DNA from: a virus | Length of the DNA stretch: 49,896 nucleotides | Virus record (IMG/VR): IMGVR_UViG_3300023184_000186 | Coordinates: 1 to 49,896 of that record | Strand: one strand, 5' to 3' | Shown here: piece by piece, positions 5,443 through 45,700 of the stretch | Layout of the letters: each line of letters starts with the position of its first letter | Position numbering within the stretch: position 1 is the stretch's first letter | Made by a program: the position numbers and the translations under genes | The notes under the pieces: model-generated | What the model saw: the letters and a program-made list of their open reading frames with translations, nothing else | The model's database searches: none | Told to the model about the DNA's origin: nothing

Positions 5443-5452
5443 GATCGACTCC

Positions 5453-5842: not shown

Positions 5843-6195
5843 TAGACCATTCTCCCTCTGGTCTTGCCGCGCTTGGCTACGCCATCTGCACGGGAAGAAG
5901 CTGTGGCTTTAACCTTGCCGCCTTTTTTTAAAAGCATTCCTTCAGGCTTTTGGTAGTCTTTGGTTGCAAATTCCTGCATTGGCTCATTAGCTTTAGCACG
6001 CATTGCTGGGTTAACACGCTTAGCCGTTTCACTAAAGTTTCGTTCCCTCAACACGGCTGTGTCGTAAGCTATCGGGTCTTCTGCACGCAAAGAATCAAGC
6101 TTATTTTTTGCACCAAGGATTGCCCCTTGACCCGCAGTCCTTGCCAGCCTAACCATTGGCATTACGCTGGATATATCTAAATCTGGTTTTGGCAT
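5842..6195 (-). CDS. Small basic late protein with ADGVAxRGKTxG motif
   Basis: A 117-residue protein with a helical first half (MVRLARTAGQGAILGAKNKL) and a basic C-terminus, KKGGKVKATASSRADGVAKR followed by GKTRGRM. The ADGVA.RGKT.G motif recurs in the product of 7375-7776. GGAGGG precedes the ATG. Probably a minor virion component; the motif is shared with small proteins of other environmental phages, whose role is unknown. Confidence 0.65.
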   Translation of the reverse strand: MPKPDLDISSVMPMVRLARTAGQGAILGAKNKLDSLRAEDPIAYDTAVLRERNFSETAKRVNPAMRAKANEPMQEFATKDYQKPEGMLLKKGGKVKATASSRADGVAKRGKTRGRMV

Positions 6196-6198
6196 GTC

Positions 6199-7125
6199 TT
6201 ACCCTCCAATAAACATCTGGCGGGGCACGAGACGCAATGCTGCACGTTCCTGATCTTCGTCTGCCGCCGACATCCACGCTTCGTCATACTGCGCTTTCAG
6301 CACCACTAGCCTGTCCATGCCGCCCGGAACCTTCAAAGCGATGTAGTAGGCCAGTCCGGCCACCATGCAGGGCACAAATCGGAAGGGAACATCCATGACA
6401 TTCACACCACTGCCAGCATCCTGCACCCGGCGCATGCGCCAGTACACAAACTGATAGGTCTGGGAGCCATCAGGAGTGGGCCAGACAGTGATTCGGGGGA
6501 GGTTGGGTACGTAGACAGCCACACCAGCGGTGTGGGCTGCGGCAGTCGTGTTGTTCTGGGCACGAAAACAGTCGCCCAAGTCGTTGCCATCCACGTAGGT
6601 GTAGTAGATTGTCTCGGTGCCCAACGTGATGTAGCCAGATGTGGCCAGACCAACTGTGCTGGAGAGGGTAATTGTGGTGTCTGTGGACGTGATGGTGGTC
6701 GCCAAAGTTACGCCAGAGGGGGCATTCTGGCCATCCAGCCGCTGATACCAGACCTGAATTGGTCTGGCTTGGGTCAATTTATTGGGGATGGTCGCGTAGG
6801 TGGACACGCTGATGCGTGTGATTGTCAAATCTGACTGGGTTGCGGCCACGTTTGCATTGGTTCGGATCACATGATCCAGCAAATCCACCGTATCGGTAGG
6901 TATGGCGTAGGTGTTTAGCCCTTGCTCAAAGGTAATGGTGCCCTGCTCAAACGTCCACATGTTGATACCACGGTTTGCCCAGTCAGCAAACAGTAAGTTC
7001 AGTGATCGCCGTGCAGTTTTCAGGTCATAGCCCGTGCGCAACTCTGAACCAGCACGCTCAAAAGCTTCCTCTACCAGTTCGGTGAGGTCTAAATTGAAGC
7101 CTGTTGACCCAGAGGTGTTCGCCAT
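6199..7125 (-). CDS. Head-tail connector, tail tubular protein A-like
   Basis: A 308-residue protein. The N-terminal block (LTELVEEAFERAGSELRTGY, RSLNLLFADWANRGINMWTF) and the following TYAIPTDTVDLLDHVIR are typical of the adaptor ring that extends the portal in podoviruses (T7 gp11-like or P22 gp4-like functions). The middle carries a beta-rich insert of about 80 residues (ITLSSTVGLATSGYITLG). The C-terminus returns to helices (VAGLAYYIALKVP). It probably sits on the portal and joins it to the tail. The family is recognised by pattern; the exact homologue is uncertain. Confidence 0.7.
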   Translation of the reverse strand: MANTSGSTGFNLDLTELVEEAFERAGSELRTGYDLKTARRSLNLLFADWANRGINMWTFEQGTITFEQGLNTYAIPTDTVDLLDHVIRTNANVAATQSDLTITRISVSTYATIPNKLTQARPIQVWYQRLDGQNAPSGVTLATTITSTDTTITLSSTVGLATSGYITLGTETIYYTYVDGNDLGDCFRAQNNTTAAAHTAGVAVYVPNLPRITVWPTPDGSQTYQFVYWRMRRVQDAGSGVNVMDVPFRFVPCMVAGLAYYIALKVPGGMDRLVVLKAQYDEAWMSAADEDQERAALRLVPRQMFIGG

Positions 7126-7373
7126 TATTTAGACATCCGCATGTTGTCGATTAAGTTTGGGTAAGGTCTGCCAGCAGCTTTTGCCGCAGCCTTAGCTTTG
7201 GCTTTCTTCTCTGGTGACAGCTTTGTGTGCTTCTTGGCAGGGTTGGGTTTATCCCAAACCTCTCCACCCTCTGCGTACATGGCGACCTTGTTCGGATCAT
7301 CCTTGCGGGTGATCGTCTTTCTACCCGGCATCTTTGACGGGTTGATGTCGCCCATGCCGCGTGAGGGTCTCAT
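7125..7373 (-). CDS. Small lysine/alanine-rich late protein, 82 aa
   Basis: Starts MRPSRGMGDINPSKMPGRKT. A KLSPEKKAKAKAAAKAAGRP stretch near the C-terminus resembles DNA-binding tails. It ends YPNLIDNMRMSK, a sequence of a kind I associate with small proteins of related phages. It lies one base after the stop of the upstream gene and overlaps the connector gene by TAATG. Probably virion-associated. Confidence 0.6.
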   Translation of the reverse strand: MRPSRGMGDINPSKMPGRKTITRKDDPNKVAMYAEGGEVWDKPNPAKKHTKLSPEKKAKAKAAAKAAGRPYPNLIDNMRMSK

Positions 7374-7374
7374 C

Positions 7375-7776
7375 TCAGCACTTCCCGCCTTTTTTCATGG
7401 CGATCTGCGTACCTTTGGTTTTGCCACGTTGAGCAACACCATCAGCCGCGCTGGTGTAACCACCAGCAGCCATTTTCTTGACACCGCCGCCTTTTTTCAT
7501 GCCGCCCATCATTTGGGTTTTGTCGAAAGCTTCTTCTTTCTTGGAGCCTTCTTTGCCCTTGCCCTTCATCTCAGCATCTTTGCCAGATTTTTCAAATTTA
7601 GCAAACGGATTCATTTTCTTTGTAGCCATATCACCACCTCTTTTAAAAGTTTTGCCTTTGTCGGCAGTTGAAAAATCCTTGCCCACAGACTGCGGGACTC
7701 CGACCTTCTTGGCAAACGATGGCGAGTGTGCAATCGCTTCCATGAAATTGTGTTGCTTCTTACTTGTGCTCGGCAT
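7375..7776 (-). CDS. Basic late protein with ADGVAQRGKTKG motif, 133 aa
   Basis: The start is placed at MPSTSKKQHNF (ATG at 7776). The frame reaches back to 7863, but that extension has no family-like sequence. The N-terminal third (NFMEAIAHSPSFAKKVGVPQ, SVGKDFSTADKGK) is a pattern I recognise from small phage proteins. The rest is very Lys/Gly-rich with ADGVAQRGKTKG and a KKGGKC end. It shares this motif with 5842-6195. The start overlaps the holin-like gene by 17 bp. Role unknown, perhaps internal to the head. Confidence 0.65.
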   Translation of the reverse strand: MPSTSKKQHNFMEAIAHSPSFAKKVGVPQSVGKDFSTADKGKTFKRGGDMATKKMNPFAKFEKSGKDAEMKGKGKEGSKKEEAFDKTQMMGGMKKGGGVKKMAAGGYTSAADGVAQRGKTKGTQIAMKKGGKC

Positions 7777-7966
7777 CGTCTGCCTGCTTTTTACTAAGCA
7801 GCTTGTAAAAATCTTTACCTGTGGCCATTTCGTAAATGCGCATGGCTCCCACCACTGCGCCAATCAAGGCAAACAGTGGGTTAAACATTTCCAAGAACGC
7901 GCCAAACGTGCTGAAAATTGCTACAAAGTCCAGTACGTTTTTTACGTTGTCTGTGTGTTCTGTCAT
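7760..7966 (-). CDS. Small membrane protein, possible holin
   Basis: A 68-residue protein with a polar N-terminus (MTEHTDNVKN) and two close hydrophobic segments: VLDFVAIFSTFGAFL (about 11-25) and PLFALIGAVVGAMRIY (about 30-45). A charged tail rich in Lys and Asp follows. Size, two-segment topology and late position fit a small holin, which would permit release of lysis enzymes. No endolysin gene is seen next to it, so this stays a guess; another membrane role is possible. Confidence 0.5.
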   Translation of the reverse strand: MTEHTDNVKNVLDFVAIFSTFGAFLEMFNPLFALIGAVVGAMRIYEMATGKDFYKLLSKKQADDAEHK

Positions 7967-7967
7967 A

Positions 7968-8237
7968 TCAACATTTCCATGCCCGAAGGCTTTTGTTAAT
8001 CCTCGAATCTGGGTCTTTTGCGGTCTTCGTACTTGTCAGCTTCTTCTTCATGCCTTCCATACGGGCGCAGAAAGAGTCTCGCCTGCTGCCGCCCTCTGGC
8101 TGTGGAGCTTTCAGACCCGGCTTGCCGGGGTTCGCCTTGTTGTAGGAGGCCCGACCTTTGGCGTTTAAGCCGCCATTGGGGTTCTTCCCTTCCTTGCGTG
8201 TCCATGCGGCAGATTTAGGAGTTGATTTGGTAGCCAT
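7968..8237 (-). CDS. Small conserved phage protein (DUF6321-like)
   Basis: Start placed at MATKSTPKSAAWTRKEGKNP (ATG at 8237), nine codons inside the longest frame. The conserved core is SAAWTRKEGKNPNGGLNAKG, then GSRRDSFCARMEGMKKKLTS and DPDSRINKSLRAW. This matches what I know of DUF6321-type proteins of phages. It overlaps the upstream gene by 23 bp. Strongly basic and compact; could bind nucleic acid. Function not established. Confidence 0.7.
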   Translation of the reverse strand: MATKSTPKSAAWTRKEGKNPNGGLNAKGRASYNKANPGKPGLKAPQPEGGSRRDSFCARMEGMKKKLTSTKTAKDPDSRINKSLRAWKC

Positions 8238-9018
8238 TTTGAACCAGTAAGATGTGCATTTCACCAGTCATTTGACCAGACGCGCCAGCAGAAACGTGCA
8301 TATCAAGGTCAGTCTTTTCAGCAAACGCTAACGGGTAATCAAAGTGTCGGTCAAATACGCTACCCGCATTGAAGCGAGCAGAAGCCTCAATTGTTGGAAA
8401 GTTTTGACCGTACTTGTAGACATACAAGAATCCAGAACAGATTGTGTTAGCAGTCGTGTTATTGGATGTGAATGTGTAACTTGTGATGTACGCCGTATAA
8501 CCAGCAGGGACAGTGTAGATTGCTTGTGTTTGTGCGTTATACGCAACTGGCATCAACGAGTAGATGGTTGCAGGAATTCCGGTTGTCACTGTGCCTGTAC
8601 CGGCGTAGATGATGCCTGCGGCTGTATTTCCAGAACCAGCAGTCAACACATAGAAGTCGTTGATGCGAAGGTAGCTATTGCTTGTATTTACCGCTGTCTG
8701 ACCATTCAAAATAACGGTTTCAGAAATTGGTGCATAGTTGGCATCCAGTCCAGAAATTAAAACTGTACGCGCACCAGAACCAGCGGCGGCATCGTTTGCA
8801 CTGCCGCTAGAAATTTTCATTACTGTTGCCGATGCAGGAAATGCGTAGACGCCGGTCGTAGCCCAAACAGATTGGTTGGTGGTCACAGTAGACGCTTGAC
8901 CAAATTGGAATACGTACTGATGCCCCACCACTTGACCACGGGAAACGTGCAAGTCAAACGGCTCAAACCTACCTTTTTGGGTAATTGATGACACAACCCC
9001 ACTTAACGATGTAGCCAT
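8215..9018 (-). CDS. Virion structural protein, 267 aa
   Basis: A beta-rich, Cys-poor protein: FEPFDLHVSRGQVVGHQYVF near the start, many Thr/Ala/Gly strands, then YTVPAGYTAYITSYTFTSNN and a C-terminal SGQMTGEMHILLVQNGYQ. AAAGGA precedes the ATG. Its location just after the capsid genes suggests a head decoration or head-fibre protein. No catalytic motif. Confidence 0.6.
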   Translation of the reverse strand: MATSLSGVVSSITQKGRFEPFDLHVSRGQVVGHQYVFQFGQASTVTTNQSVWATTGVYAFPASATVMKISSGSANDAAAGSGARTVLISGLDANYAPISETVILNGQTAVNTSNSYLRINDFYVLTAGSGNTAAGIIYAGTGTVTTGIPATIYSLMPVAYNAQTQAIYTVPAGYTAYITSYTFTSNNTTANTICSGFLYVYKYGQNFPTIEASARFNAGSVFDRHFDYPLAFAEKTDLDMHVSAGASGQMTGEMHILLVQNGYQINS

Positions 9019-9034
9019 ACAAATCCTTTAAGAA

Positions 9035-9050
9035 GGGGGCCGAAGCCCCC
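9035..9050 (-). terminator. GC-rich UUCG hairpin between two structural genes
   Basis: On the minus strand the RNA reads GGGGGC-UUCG-GCCCCC, a six-pair stem with the very stable cUUCGg loop. It lies just after the stop of the gene at 9059-9577, followed by UUCUU and then AAAGGA for the next gene. The U tract is weak, so it may attenuate transcription or protect mRNA ends rather than terminate fully. The identical 16 bases occur at 39236-39251. Confidence 0.6.
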
Positions 9051-9058
9051 GAGTTCAA

Positions 9059-9577
9059 TTAAGCGGTACGGGTAAATACATAAGCCGTGGCACTAGAGAA
9101 CATGATGCGGAAGCAGCCAATACCCGTAGCACCAGAAGCTACTGTTAATTGACCAAAGCTTGCTGCGGTGGTGTTGGCTGCATCGGACTTGATACCGTTG
9201 GTAGCTACAGCAACTGTTACCGTGCTTGCACCAGCAGTATTGTCAATGAACAAATCCAAAACAGTTCCGGCAGTTGCTCCAAGAGCAGCGCCCAAAAGCG
9301 TACCGGTAGGAAGCGTAATAGTGACCGGTGCGACGGAAGTAGAAGTGATATAGCCGGTTGCAACTTGTGCTGCGGTGGCTGTGGCTGTTGCGTTAATGGC
9401 AGCAGATGTGGGGTGAATCTGGCTGGTATAAGCCAAAGTCGTTGTTGCCACACTTGTTACGCTAGTAGCAGTGCCCAGAGTGGATGTGGTGGTAACTGCG
9501 CCGGTAGTTGAATCAATGGAAACAGTTTGAAAACCGTTTTGTGATCGTACTGGGCCGCTAAATGTGCTATTAGACAT
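9059..9577 (-). CDS. Small head-associated virion protein, 172 aa
   Basis: A Thr/Ala/Ser-rich beta protein starting MSNSTFSGPVRSQNGFQTV. It holds SVAPVTITLPTGTLLGAALG and a C-terminal FRIMFSSATAYVF. The composition fits a capsid decoration or short head-fibre protein. AAGGA precedes the ATG. It is framed by a terminator upstream (after the capsid gene) and a UUCG hairpin downstream, so its dose is probably set separately from that of the capsid protein. Confidence 0.6.
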   Translation of the reverse strand: MSNSTFSGPVRSQNGFQTVSIDSTTGAVTTTSTLGTATSVTSVATTTLAYTSQIHPTSAAINATATATAAQVATGYITSTSVAPVTITLPTGTLLGAALGATAGTVLDLFIDNTAGASTVTVAVATNGIKSDAANTTAASFGQLTVASGATGIGCFRIMFSSATAYVFTRTA

Positions 9578-9673
9578 GTTGAATCCTTACATACAAGTGA
9601 AGCGCATCAATCGGTATGTCGTCCAGCCGGGACTGGTTTGATACGCCGGAAAGCCCGGAATGCTTTGAATATA

Positions 9674-11937: not shown

Positions 11938-12883
11938 TTTGATTCTCCAGTTTTAAAACTTCTGCAACATATTTTTTCGGGTCGAGGTTGTACTTTTTAA
12001 TTAACGCCGCTTGTGTTGGCGTTAACTGTATCTTCCTTGTCCCGGTTGAACGTGATGCAGGGGCCACCACGGATGATGGACGCCTTGGAGTCTCACTTGA
12101 CCTAGGCCGTTCTTCGTTTCCACCGAAAACTTCGGGGAACGTAGACTTCACGCGAGCATCTATCTGCTCGAAATAATCATCGCTGCGGGGATCGACCCCG
12201 TTGTTGACTAGTTTTTGATGCAGCCCTAGTGCAAAGCTGGTAACTTCTTCGAACCCGTCTGTGCCAAACCACTGGTTTTTTGCTTGCCAGCGCAAGGTCT
12301 TTTCGTCAGCACGAACCGGTTCTGGTTGTTGTTGTCGTGGTTGTACATCAAAATTTTCGTTTTGTAAAGCGGGTGGACGAAAATTATGTGCATTTTGTAC
12401 TTTTGTTTTAGCATCAAACAGTGCTTCTTGCGCAGCAAGGATAGCGTCCGAGTCAAACGACTCTTGCGCTGCCTTGTATTCACGCCGTGCTTTGTCCAAC
12501 TCTGCCTCAGCAGCAGTCTTGGCCATTGCACCATACTGTTCGGTGCCATTACTCACATACTGTTTGAGACGCTTGTTCTCTTCAGACATGTGTTGTGCAA
12601 GACGCTCAAGCTCTTGCTTTTCCCGCAAAAGGGCTTCTTTGGCGCGGCGCTCGTCATGACGGGCATGAGTCAATTCCTTGAGTCGGTCTTGAACTTTTTT
12701 GCCGTACGAGTCAATCTCTTCTTCGGTTGGGTCTTCTACTTCTTTATTAAGCGTAGGACGAAACCGATCATTCGGAGGTGTGTCATCAACAATCTCAATT
12801 TCAACATCATCTTCAGTCTCAATACTGACCTTCTGATTTTTGTTGTCCTCAAGTTCGTCGGGGAACTTGTATGCTTCTGCCAT
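11930..12883 (-). CDS. Capsid assembly scaffolding protein
   Basis: The start is set at ATG 12883 (MAEAYKFPDELED), with AAAGGA eight bases ahead. An in-frame TTG five codons earlier lies in that site and is less likely. The product (317 aa) has an acidic, disordered N-terminus and a long charged coiled coil (about 55-170, including REKQELERLAQHMSEENKRL). A Pro/Gln linker follows, and the C-terminal basic helical end (LTPTQAALIKKYNLDPKKYV) probably contacts capsid. This is the usual build of tailed-phage scaffolds, and the gene lies between portal and capsid genes. Confidence 0.8.
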   Translation of the reverse strand: MAEAYKFPDELEDNKNQKVSIETEDDVEIEIVDDTPPNDRFRPTLNKEVEDPTEEEIDSYGKKVQDRLKELTHARHDERRAKEALLREKQELERLAQHMSEENKRLKQYVSNGTEQYGAMAKTAAEAELDKARREYKAAQESFDSDAILAAQEALFDAKTKVQNAHNFRPPALQNENFDVQPRQQQPEPVRADEKTLRWQAKNQWFGTDGFEEVTSFALGLHQKLVNNGVDPRSDDYFEQIDARVKSTFPEVFGGNEERPRSSETPRRPSSVVAPASRSTGTRKIQLTPTQAALIKKYNLDPKKYVAEVLKLENQNG

Positions 12884-12894
12884 AGTTTTTCCTT

Positions 12895-13332
12895 TCAAAC
12901 GCGGGTAAGCCCACGAGGGTCTTGCACAACAGCGTCCACTTGGTCATCATTGATGAGCCGGAACTCTTTTCCAAAAATCTTGAATCGCGTACCCGAATAG
13001 GTACGAACAAGCACAAAGTCACCTTTTTGGCACCATGCTCCTGCTGGGAACTTGGTCTGGTCTTTGTACGCGTCAGGGCCAACATCGACAACAAACAGAA
13101 CCGTTGTGGCGTGTTCTTCTTGTCGCAAAGTGGCTGTGGCTTTTATGAGATCAAGCTCAGTACCGTCAATCTTTTCAGATATGTCGGGTACTGCACACAG
13201 GATTTTCCAGCCCGTAGGGGTTGGGAGCATCGTGGCTTTCTCTTCATTTGTTGCGTCTTCTGCCGGAGCATCGACGGGTTGGATCACTTCAGGCAGGGCA
13301 TATTGCCCCGGTTCAAGGAGGGTTTCACTCAT
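12895..13332 (-). CDS. GroES-like co-chaperonin
   Basis: A 145-residue protein. After an acidic leader of about 35 residues comes a Cpn10 fold. TPTGWKILCAVPDISEKIDG is the first strand with the mobile-loop region, ATTVLFVVDVGPDAYKD matches the VVAVGPG element, and CQKGDFVLVRTYSGTRFKIF matches the KVGDxVLF..YxG element. RLINDDQVDAVVQDP matches the end. Phage co-chaperonins such as T4 gp31 replace or modify host GroES so that the GroEL chamber accepts the phage capsid protein. Location between portal and scaffold supports a capsid-folding role. The overlap with the upstream gene is 8 bp. Confidence 0.82.
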   Translation of the reverse strand: MSETLLEPGQYALPEVIQPVDAPAEDATNEEKATMLPTPTGWKILCAVPDISEKIDGTELDLIKATATLRQEEHATTVLFVVDVGPDAYKDQTKFPAGAWCQKGDFVLVRTYSGTRFKIFGKEFRLINDDQVDAVVQDPRGLTRV

Positions 13333-13519
13333 TGGCTTTTTCTACTTTCTCAGCAAGGTCAAGGAGATGGCGCTCTGCGATGGCTAGACCCTGAATAGTC
13401 CCGCAAAGTTTTTGATACTCGTCGAAATTGCGGCATGCCCCACCAGCGCAGTCATCTGCGTAGTTGTTCATGTCGGTGCGTAATTTTTCGCGCAATACGC
13501 GTGCGAATTCGGAAATCAT
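13325..13519 (-). CDS. Small conserved phage protein, 64 aa
   Basis: A helical protein, MISEFARVLREKLRTDMNNY, with CAGGAC in the middle and a QGLAIAERHLLDLAEKVEKA helix. It overlaps the portal gene by ATGA and the GroES-like gene by 8 bp, so it is coupled to both. It may help portal or head assembly; no known motif. Confidence 0.6.
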   Translation of the reverse strand: MISEFARVLREKLRTDMNNYADDCAGGACRNFDEYQKLCGTIQGLAIAERHLLDLAEKVEKANE

Positions 13520-15999
13520 TGTTTAGGCGGTTCCTTTTGTTTATTGGTCAGATCATGAATGCGCTGCACGGATTGCTGGCGCTCGGTCATCTGCATCTGT
13601 TCACGCTTGGTTTTTATGTCCCCAGCCTTGCCCATTGCAGTGATATTTGCCGCTGACTTCTGCTGTTGCAGTTGACCGGCTTTGTTCATGGCATCAATCT
13701 GAAGCCGTTTGTTGTCCAGCTCCAACCGACCCTGCACTTCTTGTTGTTTGAGCTGCATGTCTTGCTGCTTGAGCTGGAGTTCTTGTTGCTTGATTTGCAA
13801 CTCTTGCTGCTGCATCTGGATCATCGGGTCTTGCTGTTGTTGCTGATTTTGTTTCTGAGCTTGCTGAGCTTGGCTCTGTTGGAGCACTTGCTGTGCAGCT
13901 TGGGCCATCATGCCGGACAACTGAATCTCCATCTCAGGCGGCAGCTTGTCATCTTCCGGTGGCAGGGGCATACCCATCTGTTGTTCAATCTTCTGGCGGT
14001 AGGCAAAGCCAACGTGCTCAGCAACGTGGGCCATCATCGCTGCTTGAATCTGCGGAGCTTTGGGGTTCTGGCCAATCAGTTCCATAACGATGGGGTCTTG
14101 CATTGCCATCATGTGCACCTTGATGTGGGACTCATGGTCTTGGTAGAAGAATGCCTTCAATGGCTCCAAGCGCAGCGCTGCCATGTTCTCGGACACTGGG
14201 TCTTTCGGCTTCTGGTCGTCCGGCAGGGGCACGAGTTTGTCAGCATCCTTGATACCCAGCACCGCCAGCATCTGCCTGTGAAGCTGGGGCAAGTCGTAAA
14301 TATCCGGTGCCATTTGAGCCATTTGTATGACCGCTTGGTACTGAACTACCCGTTGACTCATGGTGGCTGCGTTCGGATCGCTCACGGGGATGATGTCTAC
14401 GTGGTCGTAGTCTTCCTTCTTGGCCTTGCGTGGGGCATCAATCGGATCGTAGTCATAGTCTGGGTCGGTGTAGTCGCGGATGATCGCGGCCAGCAGACGC
14501 AACTCTTGCTTAAATGTGTAGTGCAGCCGCGCTTGCACGGCGCTCATGACTTTAAGCTGGCGCTCCAACAAAGCCAGTGTGGTGCCCACCGGTGCTTGGG
14601 CGGACATGTCCGACACCTTCATGTCGGCAGTGGCTGCAAACCTGCGGCCTTCTTCTACAATCTGGCCAAGCAGACCCATCAGAACTTGGCTTGGCTCCTT
14701 GTATGGCAGGGGCAGAATGCTGTCACGCAGCGCACCAGAGCCAATGTCTACGTCACGCCATTCTCCGGGTGCGATTGGGGTGTCGTCTCCCTTGATGCGC
14801 ATTCCGCGAGTTTTAAGACCTCCGGGTAGGTTAGACAGCGTGCCAGCATCAACAAGCTGTCGCATGAGGCTGGTGGCTGATTTGGCATATCCTCCAATGA
14901 GATGGAAAAGGCCGAAGCCGTAAGCTCCAAAACCCGGAATGTATTGGTAGTGAACAAAGTGTTGTCGTTTGAGTTCAAGGGGGTCTTTCTGTTCCCAGTT
15001 TCTACGGATGGCCAAAACATCGTTTGAGCCTTTGATAAGGGTAACTACGTATGGACGTGTAATGCCAGTAGGTTCGCCATCGTCGTCCACGTCTGCATCG
15101 CCAAGCAACACCAAGTCAACATGTGACTCATACAGCGTGTAGCGGTCGTCATTCAAGTCAGAGAAGCCAGTTTCTTTGTCCTTGGCCTTCTTGATGTTGT
15201 CCTGTTCCTTGCTGGGATCAGGTAGTTCAATGTCGCGGTAAAAGCCTGCCTGTTGCAATTTGACAATCTCATTTTTTGTCTTGCGCATGACGTGGGTCAG
15301 GCGGTAGCAGGTGTCCAGATCGGATGTGCCGTAGGGCAGGATGATGTCTTCAGCCGGTACAAATATTGAAATCTGACGGCCAATGTTGGGGTCGTAGTAC
15401 ACCTTCTTGAACGCCGAGCCGGTAGCTGGCAAGCTCCACAGCATGCGCTCATGCTCGGGGCGGAACTCGCGCATGACTTCTGTCAGCTCGTAGTTCATGT
15501 CTTCTTCAACGCGGATGGACGCTTCTTTCTTCTCGGGAGTTTCTTTGCCCAGAATTTTTGTACGCACCGGCCCTTGGGCTGGGAATGTCTCAGTGATGGT
15601 CTCTGACTGGAAACGTACCACGGCTTCCGTAATCATGGGATGGAACACACCTGACGCGCCGTTCCACGGTTCCGTGCGTTCTTCGTACTGCAAACCCAAC
15701 AGTTTCAAGCCCTCGGTGTAAGCCTTTTCCCAGTCCTTGCGGGAATTTTTGTCCTGCTCAATGTCTCCAGCCAACTCAGAAGCCATCTCCATGATGTCGT
15801 CTTCGGATAGCGTATCGGCCAAGTTTTCGTCAAACTCGTCGTCCTCGCCTTTACCAATACTGATGTCCAAGTCCCCGGCGTGGATGTTGACCGCTTCTGG
15901 GTCAATGATTTCAATCTCAATCGGGTCTTCCTCTTGGGCAAGCGACTCTATGCCTTGGGGCTGTTGGTACAGAGCTTTATCTATATTGGTGGCCATCAT
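13516..15999 (-). CDS. Portal protein
   Basis: An 827-residue protein, of the size of P22-type portals. Acidic N-terminus; then LLGLQYEERTEPWNGASGVF, RMLWSLPATGSAFKKVYYDP and FVPAEDIILPYGTSDLDTCY, recognisable portal segments; then FGAYGFGLFHLIGGYAKSAT, which continues into LMRQLVDAGTLSN. The C-terminal third (about 690-805) is a Gln-rich coiled coil with heptad-like QQELQLKQ units. The portal forms the dodecameric DNA gate at one capsid vertex. Start: GAGGATAA precedes tandem ATGs; either may be used. It follows the large terminase gene with a 6-bp gap, the classic packaging order. Confidence 0.85.
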   Translation of the reverse strand: MMATNIDKALYQQPQGIESLAQEEDPIEIEIIDPEAVNIHAGDLDISIGKGEDDEFDENLADTLSEDDIMEMASELAGDIEQDKNSRKDWEKAYTEGLKLLGLQYEERTEPWNGASGVFHPMITEAVVRFQSETITETFPAQGPVRTKILGKETPEKKEASIRVEEDMNYELTEVMREFRPEHERMLWSLPATGSAFKKVYYDPNIGRQISIFVPAEDIILPYGTSDLDTCYRLTHVMRKTKNEIVKLQQAGFYRDIELPDPSKEQDNIKKAKDKETGFSDLNDDRYTLYESHVDLVLLGDADVDDDGEPTGITRPYVVTLIKGSNDVLAIRRNWEQKDPLELKRQHFVHYQYIPGFGAYGFGLFHLIGGYAKSATSLMRQLVDAGTLSNLPGGLKTRGMRIKGDDTPIAPGEWRDVDIGSGALRDSILPLPYKEPSQVLMGLLGQIVEEGRRFAATADMKVSDMSAQAPVGTTLALLERQLKVMSAVQARLHYTFKQELRLLAAIIRDYTDPDYDYDPIDAPRKAKKEDYDHVDIIPVSDPNAATMSQRVVQYQAVIQMAQMAPDIYDLPQLHRQMLAVLGIKDADKLVPLPDDQKPKDPVSENMAALRLEPLKAFFYQDHESHIKVHMMAMQDPIVMELIGQNPKAPQIQAAMMAHVAEHVGFAYRQKIEQQMGMPLPPEDDKLPPEMEIQLSGMMAQAAQQVLQQSQAQQAQKQNQQQQQDPMIQMQQQELQIKQQELQLKQQDMQLKQQEVQGRLELDNKRLQIDAMNKAGQLQQQKSAANITAMGKAGDIKTKREQMQMTERQQSVQRIHDLTNKQKEPPKQ

Positions 16000-22350: not shown

Positions 22351-22836
22351 ATGAAACACACCAACAAACTAATGGAAGCACGCAGCACATACGCTGACGC
22401 AATTAACAAAGTACAGCTCGTCAATGGTGAAATAAAAGCGCTTGAAACTAAACGAGAAGCACTTATGTTGCATCCAATTTACGACCTCGCAAAAGATATC
22501 GAAAAAGAATACATCAAAGCGCTCAAAGAATCGCACGAGCAAGGCATTGCAAATGTGGGGGACATGGTGACATTCGCTGACACAAAATGTTTTGGCATCT
22601 TTAAAGTTGGCTACTGCTATCAAGTAATGGAAGTAACAACCTGTCCCATTACTGAAAAGATAGGCTATAAATTTGATGCAAGCACATTACTCAACGAGCG
22701 TGAGTTAGCAAAGATGGCTATGGTCAACAGCCAAACAGTGGACGCCTACATCAAAGATTTAAATGCGCGTAGTTTTTGTTATGACGCAGATAGATTTGTG
22801 TTGGGTGTAACAGTGCAAGCAGAATTATTTTATTAA
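22351..22836 (+). CDS. Early protein with N-terminal coiled coil, 161 aa
   Basis: The first half is a charged coiled coil (VQLVNGEIKALETKREALML, DIEKEYIKALKESHE). The second has a GDMVTFADTKCFGIFKVGYC strand pair, like small SH3-type barrels, and ends VLGVTVQAELFY. GGGAGAACTGAA precedes the ATG. Codons are more AT-rich than those of the following two genes. Not recognised. Confidence 0.6.
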   Translation: MKHTNKLMEARSTYADAINKVQLVNGEIKALETKREALMLHPIYDLAKDIEKEYIKALKESHEQGIANVGDMVTFADTKCFGIFKVGYCYQVMEVTTCPITEKIGYKFDASTLLNERELAKMAMVNSQTVDAYIKDLNARSFCYDADRFVLGVTVQAELFY

Positions 22837-22860
22837 GCAGGACTAATCATCCTGTCAACA

Positions 22861-22907
22861 AATGGGGGTAAGCCTACCCCCATTGCATCGACGTGTGTCT
22901 CACACAC
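22861..22907 (+). promoter_or_regulatory. Two tandem hairpins ahead of the amidoligase gene
   Basis: A ten-pair stem AATGGGGGTA / TACCCCCATT with a four-base loop (22861-22884), then GTGTGT-ctc-ACACAC (22893-22907). Neither has a U tract. They separate the preceding coupled gene string from the amidoligase gene and may block exonucleases or slow polymerase. Confidence 0.6.
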
Positions 22908-22938
22908 AAACTAAATCAAAATCAACTGGAGAAGCATC

Positions 22939-24750
22939 ATGAAAATGTACATGGTTTCAATCATTAACGCGGCAGAAGTCCGCAAGGTCGTGTTCATCAA
23001 CGCGTTCAATCGTTTCACTGGGTTGTGTGTCAACCGTTCTTGCCACGGCAAGCTTGGTGTTGATCGTGCTCGTGTTGACTACGATGACTGGGACATGGCT
23101 CCTCGCATCATGCGTGAGAGGATCATCACTGACTTAGCCGATCTCAAGGTCGCTGCTATGGCATACGCAGAGGCCGTGGCTGATCACCACGACGTTGCTA
23201 CCACGAGCACAGTCGAGGAAGTCAATGGTGACCTGCTCAAGTGGTTCATGACGTGGGGTTTGCCGTTCACCTATCGCATGTATAGTGTGCTGTGTGACAC
23301 CCTGTCTTGGGGTAGTACGAAGCGCGAGAAGATGCGCGGCATCATCAGCGACATGGAAGAACGCTTTAGTAGGTTGCACGGCAACCCTGTGCAGTGGCGT
23401 ATCAGCTACAAGGGCGCTACTTATCGCAGTGAGTATGGGTTCAAGAGCGCCAAGAACTTCTGTACTGAGATGGGTAGGCTCATCGCTGAGTCGATCAAGG
23501 AAGATGAGGATGTGTTCAGCGCATCGTTCATGGAAGACTACTCCACTGAGTCAGGCTTACATCACCGCATTGCTCAAGCCGCACACGATGCTTTACATAG
23601 TCATGGCATTAACTTCAATCTCACTGATTACTACTGCGATCACTGGGATCACACAGGCAACGGCAGCACAGTACTCATCAGCGGCGGACGTTATCGTGAA
23701 TACTGTTCGCACTGTGCACAGAACACCGATGTTGTTATCGAGACGTATGACACAGGCGTATTGATGGAGCGCGGCGCAGCGTACTGGCATGACGGCAACG
23801 AGGAGTACTACCAGCACGAGCCTGATAGTGACTACGATGACGAGAACAGCGATGACGACAGAGACAACGACACAAGCAGTCTCATGTCGTACACCGCCAA
23901 CGTGCTTGACGTGCTTGACAAGGACGCATCGTTCACATCGTCCCCGTTCGGTGAGTTCCACATGGGTGTCGAGGTCGAGCTTGTGACCAGCGGGTATGTC
24001 AGCGAGGCGGTCACTGATCTGCGTACCCAGTTGGGTGAGGACTACGTCATCTGTAAGTCTGACGGTTCGTTGCCCTCGGGTGGTGTCGAGGTTGTCACTG
24101 CGCCTCGTGGTCTGCATGACCACATCGCACGCTTCAAGGCGTGGACTATCGACAGTAAGTACCGTGCGTGGAACACCAACAAGTGCGGTATGCACGTTCA
24201 CATCGACTCTCGTGCGTTCACTCGCTTGACGCTGGGTAAGTTCATCATGTTCATCAATGACGAGAAGAATGCTGAGTTCGTTCGCAAGATCGCTGGTCGT
24301 CATCCACACATTGACGAGCAAGCCCGTACTTACTGTGCCGCCGAGGGGCAGTACGCTATGGAGAATCCAAGCAAGGCATTGAAGGGTAAGAGCAGTAGCC
24401 GTTACTACATGGTCAACACGACTTGTCTGCGTAGCTCCGAGGCTAACCGCTTGGGTGTGAGCTATGTCGGCGAGCGCAACTTCAACACCATCGAGCTGCG
24501 TGTGTTTCGTGCATCCCTCAAGAAAGAACGCTTGCTTGCCCAGATCGAGTTCACTCATGCGGTCATCATGTTCTGTCGCGTTGCAAGTATGCGTGACCTG
24601 AACGGTGCATCGTTCCTCAAGTGGCTCAAGTCTACGGACAACCGCTATCCGCATCTGTCCGACTGGTACGGTATCCGCCGCCGTGTCGGTGCTAAGAATG
24701 CTGCCCCATCCGAGTCAACCTGTGTTGACAACCTCACCGTATCGTCTTAA
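22939..24750 (+). CDS. Amidoligase-family protein (ATP-dependent COOH-NH2 ligase)
   Basis: A 603-residue protein. The C-terminal half is a glutamine-synthetase-like amidoligase. MGVEVELV (about 340-347) gives the first acidic metal ligands, and KSDGSLPSGGVEVVTAP (about 372-388) the second. KCGMHVHIDSR follows (about 414-424), then YYMVNTTCLR and FNTIELRVFR (about 513-522). Such enzymes join carboxyl and amino groups with ATP to modify peptides, proteins or metabolites. The N-terminal half (about 1-330) is unfamiliar. It has a Cys/His cluster (CDHWDH near 232, CSHC near 256) that could bind zinc, followed by a very acidic linker. The next gene encodes a class II glutamine amidotransferase, a likely ammonia source. 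GGAGAAGCATC precedes the ATG. Confidence 0.78.
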   Translation: MKMYMVSIINAAEVRKVVFINAFNRFTGLCVNRSCHGKLGVDRARVDYDDWDMAPRIMRERIITDLADLKVAAMAYAEAVADHHDVATTSTVEEVNGDLLKWFMTWGLPFTYRMYSVLCDTLSWGSTKREKMRGIISDMEERFSRLHGNPVQWRISYKGATYRSEYGFKSAKNFCTEMGRLIAESIKEDEDVFSASFMEDYSTESGLHHRIAQAAHDALHSHGINFNLTDYYCDHWDHTGNGSTVLISGGRYREYCSHCAQNTDVVIETYDTGVLMERGAAYWHDGNEEYYQHEPDSDYDDENSDDDRDNDTSSLMSYTANVLDVLDKDASFTSSPFGEFHMGVEVELVTSGYVSEAVTDLRTQLGEDYVICKSDGSLPSGGVEVVTAPRGLHDHIARFKAWTIDSKYRAWNTNKCGMHVHIDSRAFTRLTLGKFIMFINDEKNAEFVRKIAGRHPHIDEQARTYCAAEGQYAMENPSKALKGKSSSRYYMVNTTCLRSSEANRLGVSYVGERNFNTIELRVFRASLKKERLLAQIEFTHAVIMFCRVASMRDLNGASFLKWLKSTDNRYPHLSDWYGIRRRVGAKNAAPSESTCVDNLTVSS

Positions 24751-24771
24751 TATTTATAAAGGAATCTAATC

Positions 24772-25869
24772 ATGTGTTTAATCATCACTGGCACTTCTGC
24801 CAAAATCCGTTCGACTCTGCTCGACACACACGCGTTGCTCAGCGACATCTTCACCAACAATCCTGATGGCATCGGCATCATGTATGCCACGACCAAGGGC
24901 TTGAAGGTTGTCAAGCAGTTGCCTAAGTCTCTCGCTGATGCGACTCACTTCATCAGCAAGTTACCCAACGATGACCGCGAGCTTGCGATTCACTTTCGCT
25001 GGACTACGCACGGTCACACTGACCTGACCAACTGCCATCCGTATGACGTAATTCCTGGCTATGTAGCCATGATGCACAACGGCATCTTGCACACAGGCAA
25101 CGCTGCGGACAAGACCAAGTCCGACACATGGCACTTCATCCATGACTATCTTGCCAGCCCTACGACTGACCATCCACCGCTGGTACACAACGAGAAGTTC
25201 CGCGATATGCTTGCCGAGTTCATCGGTGACAACCGCTTCGTGTTCATGGATGGTGACGGCAAGATGAGCCATGTCAACTACGACCAAGGCGTTGAGCATG
25301 ACGGGCTGTGGTTCAGCAACACGTATGCGTGGAGACCAAGCCGCTTGATCCCCTCATACCAGTACTCGACCAAGTATGCTGCGCGTCACTACGACTTGAT
25401 GGACAGCAAGTACGACGATACATACGGTGGGTACAGGACACTGCCATCTAATACATGGAAGGATGACGATGATGCCTTGGGTAGCATCAAGCCGCGCAAG
25501 TTGTCAGCGCATGACCTTGCATGGGACGAGGACGACTATGCCTTTCCTGAAGATGATGTGCCTGAGTTTGTTGTAGAGCCTAGCGATCTGCTTGAGATCG
25601 TCATGGGTGCGGATGCTGAAGCGTTGTCCGACCTGCTTGAGCAAGTGCCTGAGACTACTATAAACATTCTCTGCAATGTGTTGGTGTGTGAGGGAACCAA
25701 GTGGACTAAGGCTGACGATATGTCAGCGCTTGAGGTAAGCATCTATCAGTCGTTCCTTGCGGGGGATATGGTTGCCTTGCTGGATGCTGTAGACAATGGG
25801 TTGCATGGTAATGTCGCTGACGTTGCGTGCTACTACATGAACTGGACACACAAGCTCGCGCTTGTGTAA
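24772..25869 (+). CDS. Class II glutamine amidotransferase-like protein
   Basis: A 365-residue protein starting MCLIITGT: Cys2 is the usual N-terminal nucleophile once Met is removed. Further family marks are NPDGIGIMYA (about 30-39), HFRWTTHGHTDLTNCHPYD (about 75-93) and VAMMHNGIL (about 98-106). These are the glutamine-binding and catalytic elements of Ntn-type glutaminases, which release ammonia. The last 150 residues are acidic (KDDDDALG, DEDDYAFPEDDVPEF) and unfamiliar. It lies 21 bp after the amidoligase gene with AAAGGA ahead. Together they could form an amide on a target still unknown. A hairpin terminator follows. Confidence 0.82.
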   Translation: MCLIITGTSAKIRSTLLDTHALLSDIFTNNPDGIGIMYATTKGLKVVKQLPKSLADATHFISKLPNDDRELAIHFRWTTHGHTDLTNCHPYDVIPGYVAMMHNGILHTGNAADKTKSDTWHFIHDYLASPTTDHPPLVHNEKFRDMLAEFIGDNRFVFMDGDGKMSHVNYDQGVEHDGLWFSNTYAWRPSRLIPSYQYSTKYAARHYDLMDSKYDDTYGGYRTLPSNTWKDDDDALGSIKPRKLSAHDLAWDEDDYAFPEDDVPEFVVEPSDLLEIVMGADAEALSDLLEQVPETTINILCNVLVCEGTKWTKADDMSALEVSIYQSFLAGDMVALLDAVDNGLHGNVADVACYYMNWTHKLALV

Positions 25870-25875
25870 TCTGGC

Positions 25876-25901
25876 GGGAGAGAAATTCTCTCCCATTTTT
25901 T
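25876..25901 (+). terminator. Dispersed inverted repeat copy 5, acting as terminator
   Basis: GGGAGAGAA-A-TTCTCTCCC (25876-25894) followed by ATTTTTT. Same core as copies 1-4, but the outer pairs are changed on both arms (A to G, T to C), so base pairing is kept. With the U tract it should end the amidoligase transcript. Confidence 0.8.
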
Positions 25902-25920
25902 AAACTAAAGGAGAAGTGAA

Positions 25921-26178
25921 ATGTATAAAGTAATTAAAACCAATGATGGGTTCATGGTCGAAGATCAGTACGAGGGCGAGTATGTCCATGATGAGCATGG
26001 CAATAACTTGTTTGACTCGGAGTATGAGGCGCAACAGTTGATGACCATAGCGCGTATGCGCGATGCGATAGATGCAATCTTTATTGCAGTAGAAGAGGGG
26101 GATGCAGAAACCATAGCGCACTTGGCGCTTCGTTACAAACAGCTTTTTGGAACCAAGGAGAAGCAAAATGAAAATTGA
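25921..26178 (+). CDS. Small acidic early protein, 85 aa
   Basis: Starts MYKVIKTNDGFMVEDQYEGE; helical second half (TIARMRDAIDAIFIAVEEGD, LALRYKQLFG). AAAGGAGAAGTGAA precedes the ATG. First gene after the hairpin terminator. No family recognised. Confidence 0.6.
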   Translation: MYKVIKTNDGFMVEDQYEGEYVHDEHGNNLFDSEYEAQQLMTIARMRDAIDAIFIAVEEGDAETIAHLALRYKQLFGTKEKQNEN

Positions 26179-26338
26179 GATTGACACAGAACGACTGATT
26201 GAAGAAGCAGTCAAATACATGGAAGATGCAAACGACTTGCGCTGGTCTGTCGGTCAGGCCTTACAAGAGTTGTACTGGCATCAAGGATGGGCAGAGTTAC
26301 AAACCGAACTGACAAAACGATACAACGAGGAGAAGTGA
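26168..26338 (+). CDS. Small early protein, 56 aa
   Basis: Start MKIEIDTERLIEEAVKYMED, chosen for AAGGAGAAGCAAA ahead of it. Entirely helical by appearance; WHQGWAELQTELTKRYNEEK end. It overlaps the preceding gene by 11 bp. Not recognised. Confidence 0.55.
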   Translation: MKIEIDTERLIEEAVKYMEDANDLRWSVGQALQELYWHQGWAELQTELTKRYNEEK

Positions 26339-26339
26339 A

Positions 26340-26522
26340 ATGAAGAAGTATCAAGTGATGGTAGCCATGTCCTACTACGTGTGGGTTGAGGTCGAAGCTG
26401 AGACGCAAGACTTGGCAAAAGATCAAGCGTTACGCAAAGCGTGGCGTGCACAAGCCAACGGCGATGGGTACTGGGGCGAAGAGCCAAGTGTGTTAGAGAT
26501 ACAAGAAGGAGAAGCAAAATGA
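26340..26522 (+). CDS. Small early protein, 60 aa
   Basis: Reads MKKYQVMVAMSYYVWVEVEA, then a helix around DLAKDQALRKAWRAQ and an acidic end. Strand-strand-helix appearance. GAGGAGAAGTGAA precedes the ATG. Function unknown. Confidence 0.55.
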   Translation: MKKYQVMVAMSYYVWVEVEAETQDLAKDQALRKAWRAQANGDGYWGEEPSVLEIQEGEAK

Positions 26523-26755
26523 CTTTATATTTCTGGAGAAGAAGCCAATACTCAACCTACCTTGAAGCAAAGAAGCAGGGTGGGCTGTATCAGATAGGCG
26601 GGTTGCAAACTGAGTACCGCACGTTGTATGAGTGCGGTGGTGACTTGGCAGATACGCTTGATGCAATACATACCACGAGGGACATGATGGACAGTAGCGA
26701 GCGCCTCGGGCATGTACTGCTCGATGACGATGGTAAATTTTTAGACGCAATGTGA
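26519..26755 (+). CDS. Small early protein, 78 aa
   Basis: Start MTLYFWRRSQYSTYLEAKKQ, with AAGGAGAAGCAAA ahead, overlapping the previous gene by ATGA. GGDLADTLDAIHTTRDMMDS helix, LGHVLLDDDGKFLDAM end. No family recognised. Confidence 0.55.
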   Translation: MTLYFWRRSQYSTYLEAKKQGGLYQIGGLQTEYRTLYECGGDLADTLDAIHTTRDMMDSSERLGHVLLDDDGKFLDAM

Positions 26756-26766
26756 AAGGAACATTC

Positions 26767-26928
26767 ATGACTGACTTTGATGGAAGACTTGACGCGTACT
26801 ACGACAGGCTGCTGGCTCAGCACCAGCGCAAGATAGACGCAGAAGATGAAGACGAACTTGAAGAAGGAGACGATGATGACTTTGAAGAATCTGATTTACC
26901 TGTTGGCAATCCTCACCATAACCCTTGA
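26767..26928 (+). CDS. Very acidic early peptide, 53 aa
   Basis: ATG with AAAGGAACATTC ahead, a leader shared with 35934. Reads MTDFDGRLDAYYDRLLAQHQ, then a strongly acidic run (about 24-43, including EDEDELEEGDDDDFEE), ending VGNPHHNP. The acidic stretch could mimic DNA, as in some small phage inhibitors, but this is a guess. Its 3' part overlaps another frame beginning at 26876. Confidence 0.5.
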   Translation: MTDFDGRLDAYYDRLLAQHQRKIDAEDEDELEEGDDDDFEESDLPVGNPHHNP

Positions 26929-27272: not shown

Positions 27273-27800
27273 ATGCCAGACTTAAAAAGTGAGATGAGCA
27301 AGGTTCTCGACGCATGGGAACAAGACGACCAACAAACACAGGAGAAGCAAGTGCAAAACACATTACCGCAAATATTCAAACCAACCAACAACGTGTCACG
27401 CGAGACGTTCAACTACATACGAGACAACCCAAACAAAAACAGCGGTGAGATACGTGCTGAACTAGCCAAGCGAGGGTTCAACGCAGGGTCAGTGGGTTCA
27501 CTCATCACGCAGTACGTTAAGCAAGGGTTTGCAAAGAGAGATGACAACGGTAGATACGCGACCATCGTGCCCGAGTACACACCACTGAAGTCAACCAAGA
27601 AGTTCCGATCAGAGGGCAAGCGCACGAACAAGATCGTGCAGATCAAGAGTAAGTCACCAAGCGCAGGCATCGCCGCGTTGAAGGTCGATACTACGCCCAA
27701 GGTCAAGCCATCGTGGGATGTAGACACAGTGCTCGACACCATGAGTATTGTGCAAGCACGCACCTTGTACGATGCCCTCAAGAAAATATTTGGAGGTTGA
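27273..27800 (+). CDS. Putative winged-helix DNA-binding protein
   Basis: A 175-residue protein. The region NVSRETFNYIRDNPNKNSGE followed by IRAELAKRGFNAGSVGSLIT and GFAKRDDNGRYATI (about 40-98) reads as a winged helix with a two-strand wing. Basic linkers follow (KSTKKFRSEGKRTNK), and the C-terminal helix is VDTVLDTMSIVQARTLYDAL. Proteins of this kind act as phage transcription or replication regulators. It has its own promoter; the TTGACA overlaps the GTCCAACC motif region. The DNA target is unknown. Confidence 0.65.
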   Translation: MPDLKSEMSKVLDAWEQDDQQTQEKQVQNTLPQIFKPTNNVSRETFNYIRDNPNKNSGEIRAELAKRGFNAGSVGSLITQYVKQGFAKRDDNGRYATIVPEYTPLKSTKKFRSEGKRTNKIVQIKSKSPSAGIAALKVDTTPKVKPSWDVDTVLDTMSIVQARTLYDALKKIFGG

Positions 27801-42727: not shown

Positions 42728-45700
42728 TTATTGGGGTGCTGTTTTATCGAGCACTCCGCGCATAGTATCGGCAATCCGTATCCGCAACTTTTGCAGGCGG
42801 TCAAGCGTTGCTCGTTTTTCATCAGGGGTCATGCTGGACGCTTTGACCGCGTTCATGGCCTGAGTTATTTTTGAAAGCTGTGTTTTGGCATTACCCGCTA
42901 TTGATGCCGATGCTATCTCGTTCACGTTCTCTTGCAAGAACGCACGGGCTTCAGACATTTCACCTTTCTTAAGCATGTCTTCGTATGTGCGCTTGACTTC
43001 CACAATGTGTTCAATGCGGTCGTAGGTAGCGTTGATGATGCCGCCAGCATCGTTGGGCTGGAACATTGAACCAATGACTGGCGTATCAGACAGGCGCTTG
43101 GTTGCTTCTTGCGGCCCCAGTTTCTTAGGCATTGCAAAGCTCACCGCTTGGGCTGCGGCCAAGCCCATAGTGCCTGTGTAACCACGGATCAAGTTGTCAA
43201 TTTTGATTGGTGAATACCCCGCCATTGCACCAAGTTCTTTGGCCAACTCAGACGTTTTATCGCGGAAACGTTGTTGCGGCAGCAACTTTTGTTCGCGCTG
43301 TGTTTCAAGCTCCCGCAGACCAAAGAACGAATAGTTTGTGGCGTTCTCAATCAGTGGCTTAACCAGCGCAGGCATTAGCATGGACGAGCCGCCGGGCACT
43401 GTTTGGATGGCAATACTCTTGAAAGCTTTCCACGCTTCTTCAGAGCCATGCTCAGCGGCCATTGAGTTAACAATAGCTTCTGGAATACCTTTAAGGATAT
43501 AGCCAATTTCAAACGGAACAGGGAACCTGATAGGTTCGTCCAATCCGGATATGCGGATAAAGAAATTGCCATATTTCTCTTCAGGGTTAGCGTTCTTGTA
43601 CGCGTCGTCGTCCTGCATCATCAAAGCGTATGCAACAGCGGTTGCCATAACAAGGGAGCCACGGCGCAGTAACTTGCCTTGAATATCCAGACGCTGGCTC
43701 ATAGGTAACTGACCGCTAGCTGCTCTCCACAACACATCCAAACTCTGCAACTGTGAGTTAAAGAACGGGATCATCGTAGTGGCCAAATGCATGGAAGGCG
43801 ACAATCCGCGCTTGTTAAAGTTCATTGACTCCAGCGCCATGACTGTGGCTTCCATTTGCGACAAACCTTGGCGGATGTAGGAGTCGTATTGAGCGCGGCG
43901 GGTAGCAGCATCAGCTTCCATTGCAATAGCTTCGGCCTTGGCAACAAACTGAGACAACCCCATGCGCCCACCCATCAAGTCTTTCAGTATGCGAGACAAG
44001 TCTGCGTTTGTTCCTGTGTAAACCTGACCGCCAGTAATGCCGCGTGCTTCCAGTTTTTGTTTTGTTGCACTACTGCCCAAAGCCCTGAGCGCACCCAAAG
44101 GGCCAGCAAAATCAGCGCCAGCAAGCAGCGGGGCAGCAACAGAGTCACGTAATATTTGCTTGACTGGGTACAGCGGGTTCAACATAACACCTTTACGCAC
44201 AGTACTGGAAGCAAAACCCATTACCTTTACCAACGCATTAGTGCTGACCGGGATACCTTCCATGCCCTTGACCAGTAAGTCAGCGGGGATACCCACGGCA
44301 TCAGTATCAACACGGACAAACTTTTCTTTGCCCTTGTCTTTAAACCTGACAACATTTGGCGCTGCTGTGTCTTTGCCCAAGAAGTGCGCTAAATCCAAGC
44401 CAACCAATTCAAACATAGCGTTCTTTGAGGCCAAGTTACGCAAGCCCACATCCATAATCATAGAAGTGTTTTGGATAGAGCTTGTAGCAAAGTCAAGAAT
44501 TTTGTCTTCACCGCCAATCAATTCGCGCAACTGCGGTTGATCTGTAAGGTTGCCAATCTTGTACACGCCTTCTTTACCAATCACCAACTCGGCATTGCCG
44601 TTTTGCTCGCGGTAGTAGGGTATGTAGTCGTTAGTAGCGGCAAGTTCGTCGGCCACGCTTGCGGGTAGTACGCCTGTGTCTTTCAAAAAGTGCATCAGGT
44701 TCTTGTTGTACTCGTTGTATTCTGTACGCGCTTCTTCAAACACATCCCGTAACGCCCTGTTGCTTTCAATATTACGAACAGATTGTTTAATTGAGTTTGC
44801 ATCGACACTGAAATTAAGTTTGTCGTAACCTACACGATCAGCACGTTTGCCAAGCAAATACAGCGTAAACAACTGGTTGGCCGCTTCGCCGTTCATGCCC
44901 GGGGCTTTGGCCAGTGTGCGTACCACGTTGGCCAAGTTAGCGCCGCCTACGCTTTCAACAATATATTCAGTGCGACCATCAGGGCGTGTGTATGCAACAC
45001 GTTGGGGAACGCCGTTGCCAACTGCTTGCTGAACGTAAGACATGCGCTGGTCAGAAGCCAGCAGGTAGTGCATCATCTGCATACCCTTCAACGGCTCCAG
45101 CATATCCTTGGCCACTTGGTGCAGCGGTGCTAGTCTGTCCAAGTACTGTGTGCGGAAGCCCAAGCCAAGGTTTGCTTTGATTTGTTGACCAACAGTTTTG
45201 GGCTTGGCAATAAGTTGGCTTGCCACACTCAGTTCGTCTTCAAATCCTTTGGCTTGCGCACGAGCGTAACGCGGTTCTTCAGCATTGCGCTCAACCATTT
45301 CTTGAATGGGGGGAGCGCCTTCGACACGTTGCGGAGCGTAAATAACAACGTCAGCTTCTATGTTGCCTTCAAACGGAAGATACTTAGTATCTGGTAATTT
45401 TAAATACAGTGTTCTACCTTTTGGTGCTTCAGCATTTTTAACAACAGCAACGTTGTTAACAGTTATATGCGCGTCGTTTGTATTGCTGCCGTCAATAAGG
45501 CCCACTGTTGCGTTTGGCGCAAGCGTAACAACAGCCGTATCAACATCGCGGCCAAAAGCAAATATTTGAGGGATGTATTTTACTTTTGGCAAATGCAAAT
45601 CTGTTACGTAGTCTTTATCTCCGTGAATGTTTAAAGCTTGTACCGACTCCAGATTAGGAAGTTCTATTCTGCCGTTAACAGTGTTAACGCTGATTGTTTC

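Follow-up and report, generated by a model that had tools for sequence, protein, structure and literature searches.

The window is a 49,896-base virus record from IMG/VR and carries two adjacent plus-strand genes that encode an amidoligase with a zinc-ribbon-like module and a class II glutaminase. We propose, with a probability of about 0.45, that the two proteins would act as one glutamine-dependent amide-forming enzyme, which would amidate a carboxylate of a cytosolic protein recruited by the zinc module. The glutaminase would split glutamine with its Cys2 nucleophile and pass ammonia to the amidoligase, which would activate the carboxylate with ATP as an acyl phosphate and then amidate it. 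The substrate would most likely be a cytosolic protein, from either host or phage, that binds to the zinc-ribbon/LIM-like part at the amidoligase N-terminus. We infer that ammonia serves as the nitrogen donor within a complex of the two proteins, and that the modification would benefit the phage during infection through takeover or counter-defense.

The minus-strand genes up to ~18,100 are annotated as packaging and structural genes (terminase, portal, capsid, and tail). The plus strand from 18,600 to 42,600 forms the early/replication arm, in which a scan of the large ORFs identified a polymerase, an exonuclease, a helicase, and a primase/helicase. The amidoligase and glutaminase genes lie within this arm, with the named replication genes downstream and the terminase, portal, and capsid genes upstream. 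An earlier note on this DNA had described the pair as adjacent genes with a 21-bp gap in a phage early region, and both the ORF coordinates (603 and 365 aa products) and the genome layout bear this out. The features of the locus are as follows.

22351-26849, plus strand: exchange slot, replaced in locus L239 by a zinc-ribbon protein and a peptidase
22837-25923, plus strand: cassette block, 90% identical to relative L161, with both flanks different
22861-22884, plus strand: upstream hairpin 1, AATGGGGGTA/TACCCCCATT, 10-bp stem, no T tail
22893-22907, plus strand: upstream hairpin 2, GTGTGT/ACACAC, 6-bp stem, no T tail
22928-22931, plus strand: good ribosome-binding site GGAG of the amidoligase gene, from sequence
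22939-24750, plus strand: amidoligase gene, by PF12224 above the cut-off, phrog_16683/7469, and the predicted fold of residues 335-603
23620-23778, plus strand: zinc-ribbon-like module, residues ~228-280, putative ligands C233, H235, C256, and C259
23941-24747, plus strand: amidoligase catalytic domain, residues 335-603, by invariant residues and a predicted-fold match to the glutamine-synthetase superfamily
24758-24763, plus strand: good ribosome-binding site AAAGGA of the glutaminase gene, in the 21-bp gap, from sequence
24772-25869, plus strand: class II (Ntn) glutaminase gene, by invariant catalytic residues and the predicted fold of residues 1-198
25570-25851, plus strand: glutaminase C-terminal helical domain, residues ~267-360, helices with pLDDT of ~90 in the model
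25876-25903, plus strand: credible intrinsic terminator ending the cassette, hairpin 25876-25894 followed by ATTTTTT

The earlier note also held that two upstream hairpins and a downstream terminator set the pair off from its surroundings. Both hairpins are present, but each lacks a T tail and is thus not a simple terminator. In L005, the closest relative, the palindrome of the 22861-22884 hairpin recurs as the stem of the downstream terminator. The downstream hairpin with its ATTTTTT tract is a credible terminator, as had been claimed; 57 of 72 relatives have a terminator 3′ of their glutaminase gene (0.8% of shuffled sequences), with stems that vary in sequence from one relative to another. 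A promoter candidate at 24725-24753 (TTGACA-17-TAATAT, score 10/12) was discounted because the region holds 12 such sites against 15.7 in shuffles. Both genes are under purifying selection, with dN/dS of 0.28-0.32 for the amidoligase and 0.15-0.18 for the glutaminase, and nothing in the sequences suggests decay of either.

The analysis confirms ORF 22939-24750 as an Amidoligase_2 gene whose product has a predicted glutamine-synthetase fold. Residues 380-542 match the Pfam profile PF12224 (Amidoligase_2) with 24 bits at a cut-off of 22 bits, and the ORF also matches phrog_16683 (E = 6.8e-18) and phrog_7469, an "amidoligase enzyme" family (E = 4.7e-9). Sequence searches against solved structures returned low-complexity matches only. 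An AlphaFold2 model was built from 68 lineage sequences (mean pLDDT 86), and its residues 335-603 align best with YbdK (Z = 10.4, rmsd 5.4, 220 residues aligned), followed by Escherichia coli glutamine synthetase (Z = 9.9), PafA (9.6), and Dop (9.0). All 50 matches listed for this region belong to the glutamine-synthetase superfamily (GS/YbdK/PafA/Dop). Foldseek with the full-length model finds the same families with weak E-values, the best being 3.8e-3. The residues G343-x-E345-x-E347, D375-G-S377, E384, H419-x-H421, R454, and E519-x-R521 are invariant in the 68 amidoligases, and the catalytic residues are also kept in three distant phages (Methylophilales, spring, and Clostridioides). The acidic and basic active-site motifs reported earlier thus stand, and the profile search places the gene among amidoligases.

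ORF 24772-25869 is likewise confirmed as a class II glutaminase with an EgtC/GlmS-like predicted fold. The Pfam scores are below gathering for both GATase_4 (18.1 of 23 bits, E = 0.0014) and GATase_6 (12.7 of 27 bits, E = 0.13); the ORF matches NCBIfam GlmS at 6.8e-7, and a profile comparison matches it to the solved GlmS glutaminase domain at 1.8e-4. In the AlphaFold2 model, built from 54 lineage sequences with a mean pLDDT of 75, residues 1-198 align with EgtC (Z = 11.7), GlmS (10.0), PurF (9.5), and AsnB (6.8), and Foldseek gives an E-value of 8e-6. The motifs named in the earlier note are all present: Cys2 directly follows Met1, FRWTTHG spans residues 75-81, and HNG spans 102-104. C2, R76, T79, H80, G81, N103, G104, and D118 are invariant in the 54 glutaminases, so that catalytic residues are lost in neither family. 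The glutamine pocket and oxyanion hole of GlmS, which we take to be R73, T76, H77, N98, G99, and D123, have as counterparts R76, T79, H80, N103, G104, and D118, all invariant, in a partial alignment with GlmS. A disordered linker precedes the C-terminal helical domain, which no fold match covers and which is a candidate for the partner-binding part. The catalytic domains thus resemble EgtC and the GlmS glutaminase domain on one side and YbdK, glutamine synthetase, and PafA on the other in predicted fold and catalytic residues, but identities are 9-18% and there is no fused phosphosugar synthetase.

These folds and residues predict an amidoligase that uses ATP to activate a carboxylate for linkage to an amine, and a glutaminase that frees ammonia from glutamine. 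The most economical reading is that a carboxyl group becomes amidated. Two observations speak against ammonia transfer, namely that the nearest glutaminase fold, EgtC, is a gamma-glutamyl amidase rather than an ammonia donor, and that the position equivalent to the GlmS channel gate (Trp74) is variable in this family. Judged by structure, the strongest rival is a protect/deprotect scheme, in which the amidoligase would gamma-glutamylate an amine and the Ntn hydrolase would later remove the group with no transfer of ammonia. EgtA/EgtC of ergothioneine synthesis provide a parallel. The best folds, YbdK (of the gamma-glutamylcysteine ligase type) and EgtC, both have pockets that recognize gamma-glutamyl groups. 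We nevertheless regard this scheme as doubtful: no third enzyme acting on a protected intermediate was recognized in the cassette, and GlmS and PurF fit the glutaminase nearly as well as EgtC does.

The proposed amidation of a recruited protein draws on the amidoligase N-terminus. Its motifs C233-x-H235 and C256-x2-C259 are invariant in the 68 relatives, like the catalytic residues. In Clostridia and other bacterial homologs the N-terminus is a series of Cys4-type zinc ribbons, one of which (locus L334) passes the Pfam threshold for LIM domains. Zinc motifs are N-terminal in every pair-type amidoligase examined except that of Clostridioides phage AR1086-1, which lacks the adjacent glutaminase as well as the zinc region. 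The amidoligases of phiEco32, RIO-1, and the LUZ24-type phage UFV-P2, by contrast, have the catalytic domain at their very start. The absence of the zinc/LIM part from these three wall-module enzymes suggests that it recruits a cytosolic protein. Zinc ribbons may also bind nucleic acid or lipids, or just fold the protein, and it is for this reason that we only infer a protein substrate.

Of 148 loci, 135 contain both genes, in the same order with the amidoligase first, nearly always adjacent and usually 11-65 bp apart, with short insertions in a few. In nearly all of the remaining loci, the contig includes just one of the two genes, and no fused amidoligase-glutaminase gene occurs in the 148. 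Loci L022, L019, and L124 have 0.4-1.0 kb between the two genes, perhaps an inserted element. The neighborhood survey proposed in the earlier note thus finds adjacency and order conserved in the lineage and beyond it, with the same adjacent pair in OM43 phages MEP401/402 and in spring-water phage ctgrD200. In bacteria, mostly Clostridia, 66 of 78 loci have a class II glutaminase cluster no more than 6.5 kb from the amidoligase, and the two usually overlap or abut. This coupling is kept across wide divergence, which argues for a single activity shared by the two proteins. The bacterial loci also have a DUF960 gene upstream (27 loci) and a serine recombinase nearby (38 loci). The DUF960 gene directly precedes the LIM-amidoligase/glutaminase operon in Clostridia (L333:7368-7661 and 26 other bacterial loci), and its product is a possible third component of that operon. 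PADLOC defense models gave no match.

Phage amidoligase-glutaminase pairs have been described before, in the OM43 phages (PMC10580990) and in LUZ24-like and RIO-1-like modules, so the pair is not a new kind, and a view of it as unusual in itself finds no support. MEP401/MEP402 gp05-gp06 resemble the window in having an amidoligase (28% identity) followed directly by a class II glutaminase (30% identity) in the early region, and Cys motifs in the amidoligase N-terminus. These phages differ in belonging to the Zobellviridae, in a 10-bp overlap of the two genes, and in a diverged N-terminus. The Clostridia mobile-element operons (L332-L404) share the zinc N-terminus, the amidoligase domain, and the adjacent class II glutaminase in the same order. 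Their amidoligases are ~370 aa long with several zinc ribbons instead of one; DUF960 is often encoded upstream and a serine recombinase downstream.

Judged by the literature, the strongest rival is peptidoglycan modification, in which the pair would amidate or add to the stem-peptide carboxylate of the lipid II precursor as a superinfection barrier or lysis aid. MurT/GatD reportedly amidate the wall with a ligase and a glutaminase and would be a precedent. Wall modification is the published proposal for the amidoligase/GATase genes in phiEco32-, RIO-1-, and LUZ24-type modules (PMC3890496, PMC5498523, and PMC11945000), and the idea of a "peptidoglycan modification module" goes back to Iyer 2009, according to citing papers. 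Like the window, these podovirus-type phages encode both Amidoligase_2 and a class II GATase among their early genes, but the two lie apart or in a different order, and the module also includes an ATP-grasp protein, a GGCT, and a COOH-NH2 ligase. GGCT (PF06094) was found in none of 15 lineage records, whereas the same test was positive in RIO-1 and UFV-P2, and the large early ORFs scanned gave no ATP-grasp match. COOH-NH2 ligase (PF14395) was not detected here with a model that also misses RIO-1's own. In a tree of 39 amidoligase domains, the module type splits from the pair type with 100/99 support (the three module proteins are long branches), which places the amidoligase studied here in a different clade. 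The three module-type proteins have no zinc/LIM N-terminus, the pair genes of Clostridia mobile elements adjoin recombinases rather than wall genes, and no experimental test of the module proposal was found in the literature. We consider a role of this pair in peptidoglycan modification unlikely.

The cassette that encodes the putative protein-amidating pair is accessory and optional, and it moves as a block. The block from 22837 to 25923, whose left edge directly follows the stop codon of the ORF before it, stays at 90% identity to L161 while its flanks change, in agreement with the single cassette envisaged earlier. GC3 of the pair is 0.66, the same as in the core replication genes (0.64-0.69), so composition shows no sign of recent acquisition, and a foreign origin on this ground was rejected. 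A polymerase-anchored survey gave 22 loci that extend 6.5 kb or more upstream of the polymerase gene; there the slot holds the amidoligase pair (A) in five, cassette B (a zinc-ribbon protein and an M20/M28-type peptidase) in eight, cassette C (MoxR-AAA, DUF2201 metallopeptidase-VWA, and DUF3150) in six, and none of these in three. Counted over all loci, which are partly redundant, there are 159 with A, 92 with B, 9 with C, and 3 that combine B and C; A was never seen together with B or C. The B peptidase is absent from the 15 A records examined, and the amidoligase from the 20 non-A records examined. Loci L239 and L159 hold cassette B; their polymerase is 97% identical to that of the window, and at the DNA level the gene just before the slot is 95% and the genes after it 87% identical.

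In L239, cassette B (12840-15314) encodes a 451-aa zinc-ribbon protein followed by the peptidase. The cassette is tight, with the peptidase beside 79 of 80 first genes, and the candidate metal ligands of the peptidase (H70, D72, D101, E126/E127, D153, and H222) are invariant. The amidoligase zinc ribbon aligns with that of the first gene of cassette B (HHalign probability 68%, E = 5e-5; reversed-profile control 0.26). Zinc ribbons resemble one another, so the match is suggestive of kinship and not proof. The zinc module alone matches; a relation of that gene to the amidoligase catalytic domain was rejected (probability 0.4). Cassette C was seen on the minus strand of L241 (~5144-9659) with genes for a MoxR-like AAA ATPase, DUF2201-VWA, DUF3150, and a 318-aa protein. 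Just past the slot, a plus-strand gene at 27273-27800 is conserved in 66 of 90 non-redundant loci and is a good landmark; its L239 homolog has weak matches to transcription activators/MarR, and it is possibly a regulator.

The reading given for Planctomycetes phage ZRK32, a general nitrogen or amino-acid metabolism gene aiding host nitrogen assimilation, is very unlikely here, as bulk metabolism would hardly explain a zinc targeting module, swaps with peptidase or AAA/VWA cassettes, or the pairing in mobile elements. Least probable of all is modification of a nucleobase or nucleic acid with an amidated group, for which the early-region location and the frequent nucleic-acid binding of zinc ribbons would count, but no base-hypermodification enzyme was recognized among the large ORFs scanned.

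Both enzyme identities given in the earlier note hold, and structure prediction for each protein returned folds of the glutamine-synthetase superfamily and of EgtC/GlmS; what the note missed are the zinc module, the split from the phiEco32-type module, and the swapping at the locus. New here are the three-way exchange slot and a zinc-bearing pair type that is separate from the wall module and also occurs in mobile elements of bacteria. In the open-access literature searched, which may leave papers elsewhere, none linked amidoligases to LIM domains or DUF960. An interaction paper on mycobacteriophage Giles concerns host proteins rather than a phage amidoligase, and the Marvin record has no PF12224 match. 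It is tempting, though still rather doubtful, to regard the zinc/LIM-amidoligase and glutaminase as a self-contained mobile protein-amidating system of phages and bacterial mobile elements, apart from the wall module, with the unrelated peptide-chemistry cassettes of the slot (peptidase, metallopeptidase-VWA/MoxR) serving the same anti-host purpose. Since 2009 the guess has been that phage amidoligases modify the cell wall. A zinc-bearing two-gene type apart from the multi-gene wall module would be a minimal system amenable to expression and assay, and near relatives with other cassettes in the slot allow its target to be sought by natural comparison of phages with and without the pair.

Elsewhere in the window, very long minus-strand frames run off both record ends (42728-49894, 2388 aa, and 1-2358, 786 aa), the former with an LPD38 domain. 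Probably they represent a single giant virion gene that the ends of a circularly permuted genome divide, although the frames do not directly join. A homing endonuclease gene (phrog_314 and others) lies amid the tail genes on the minus strand at 4257-4979.
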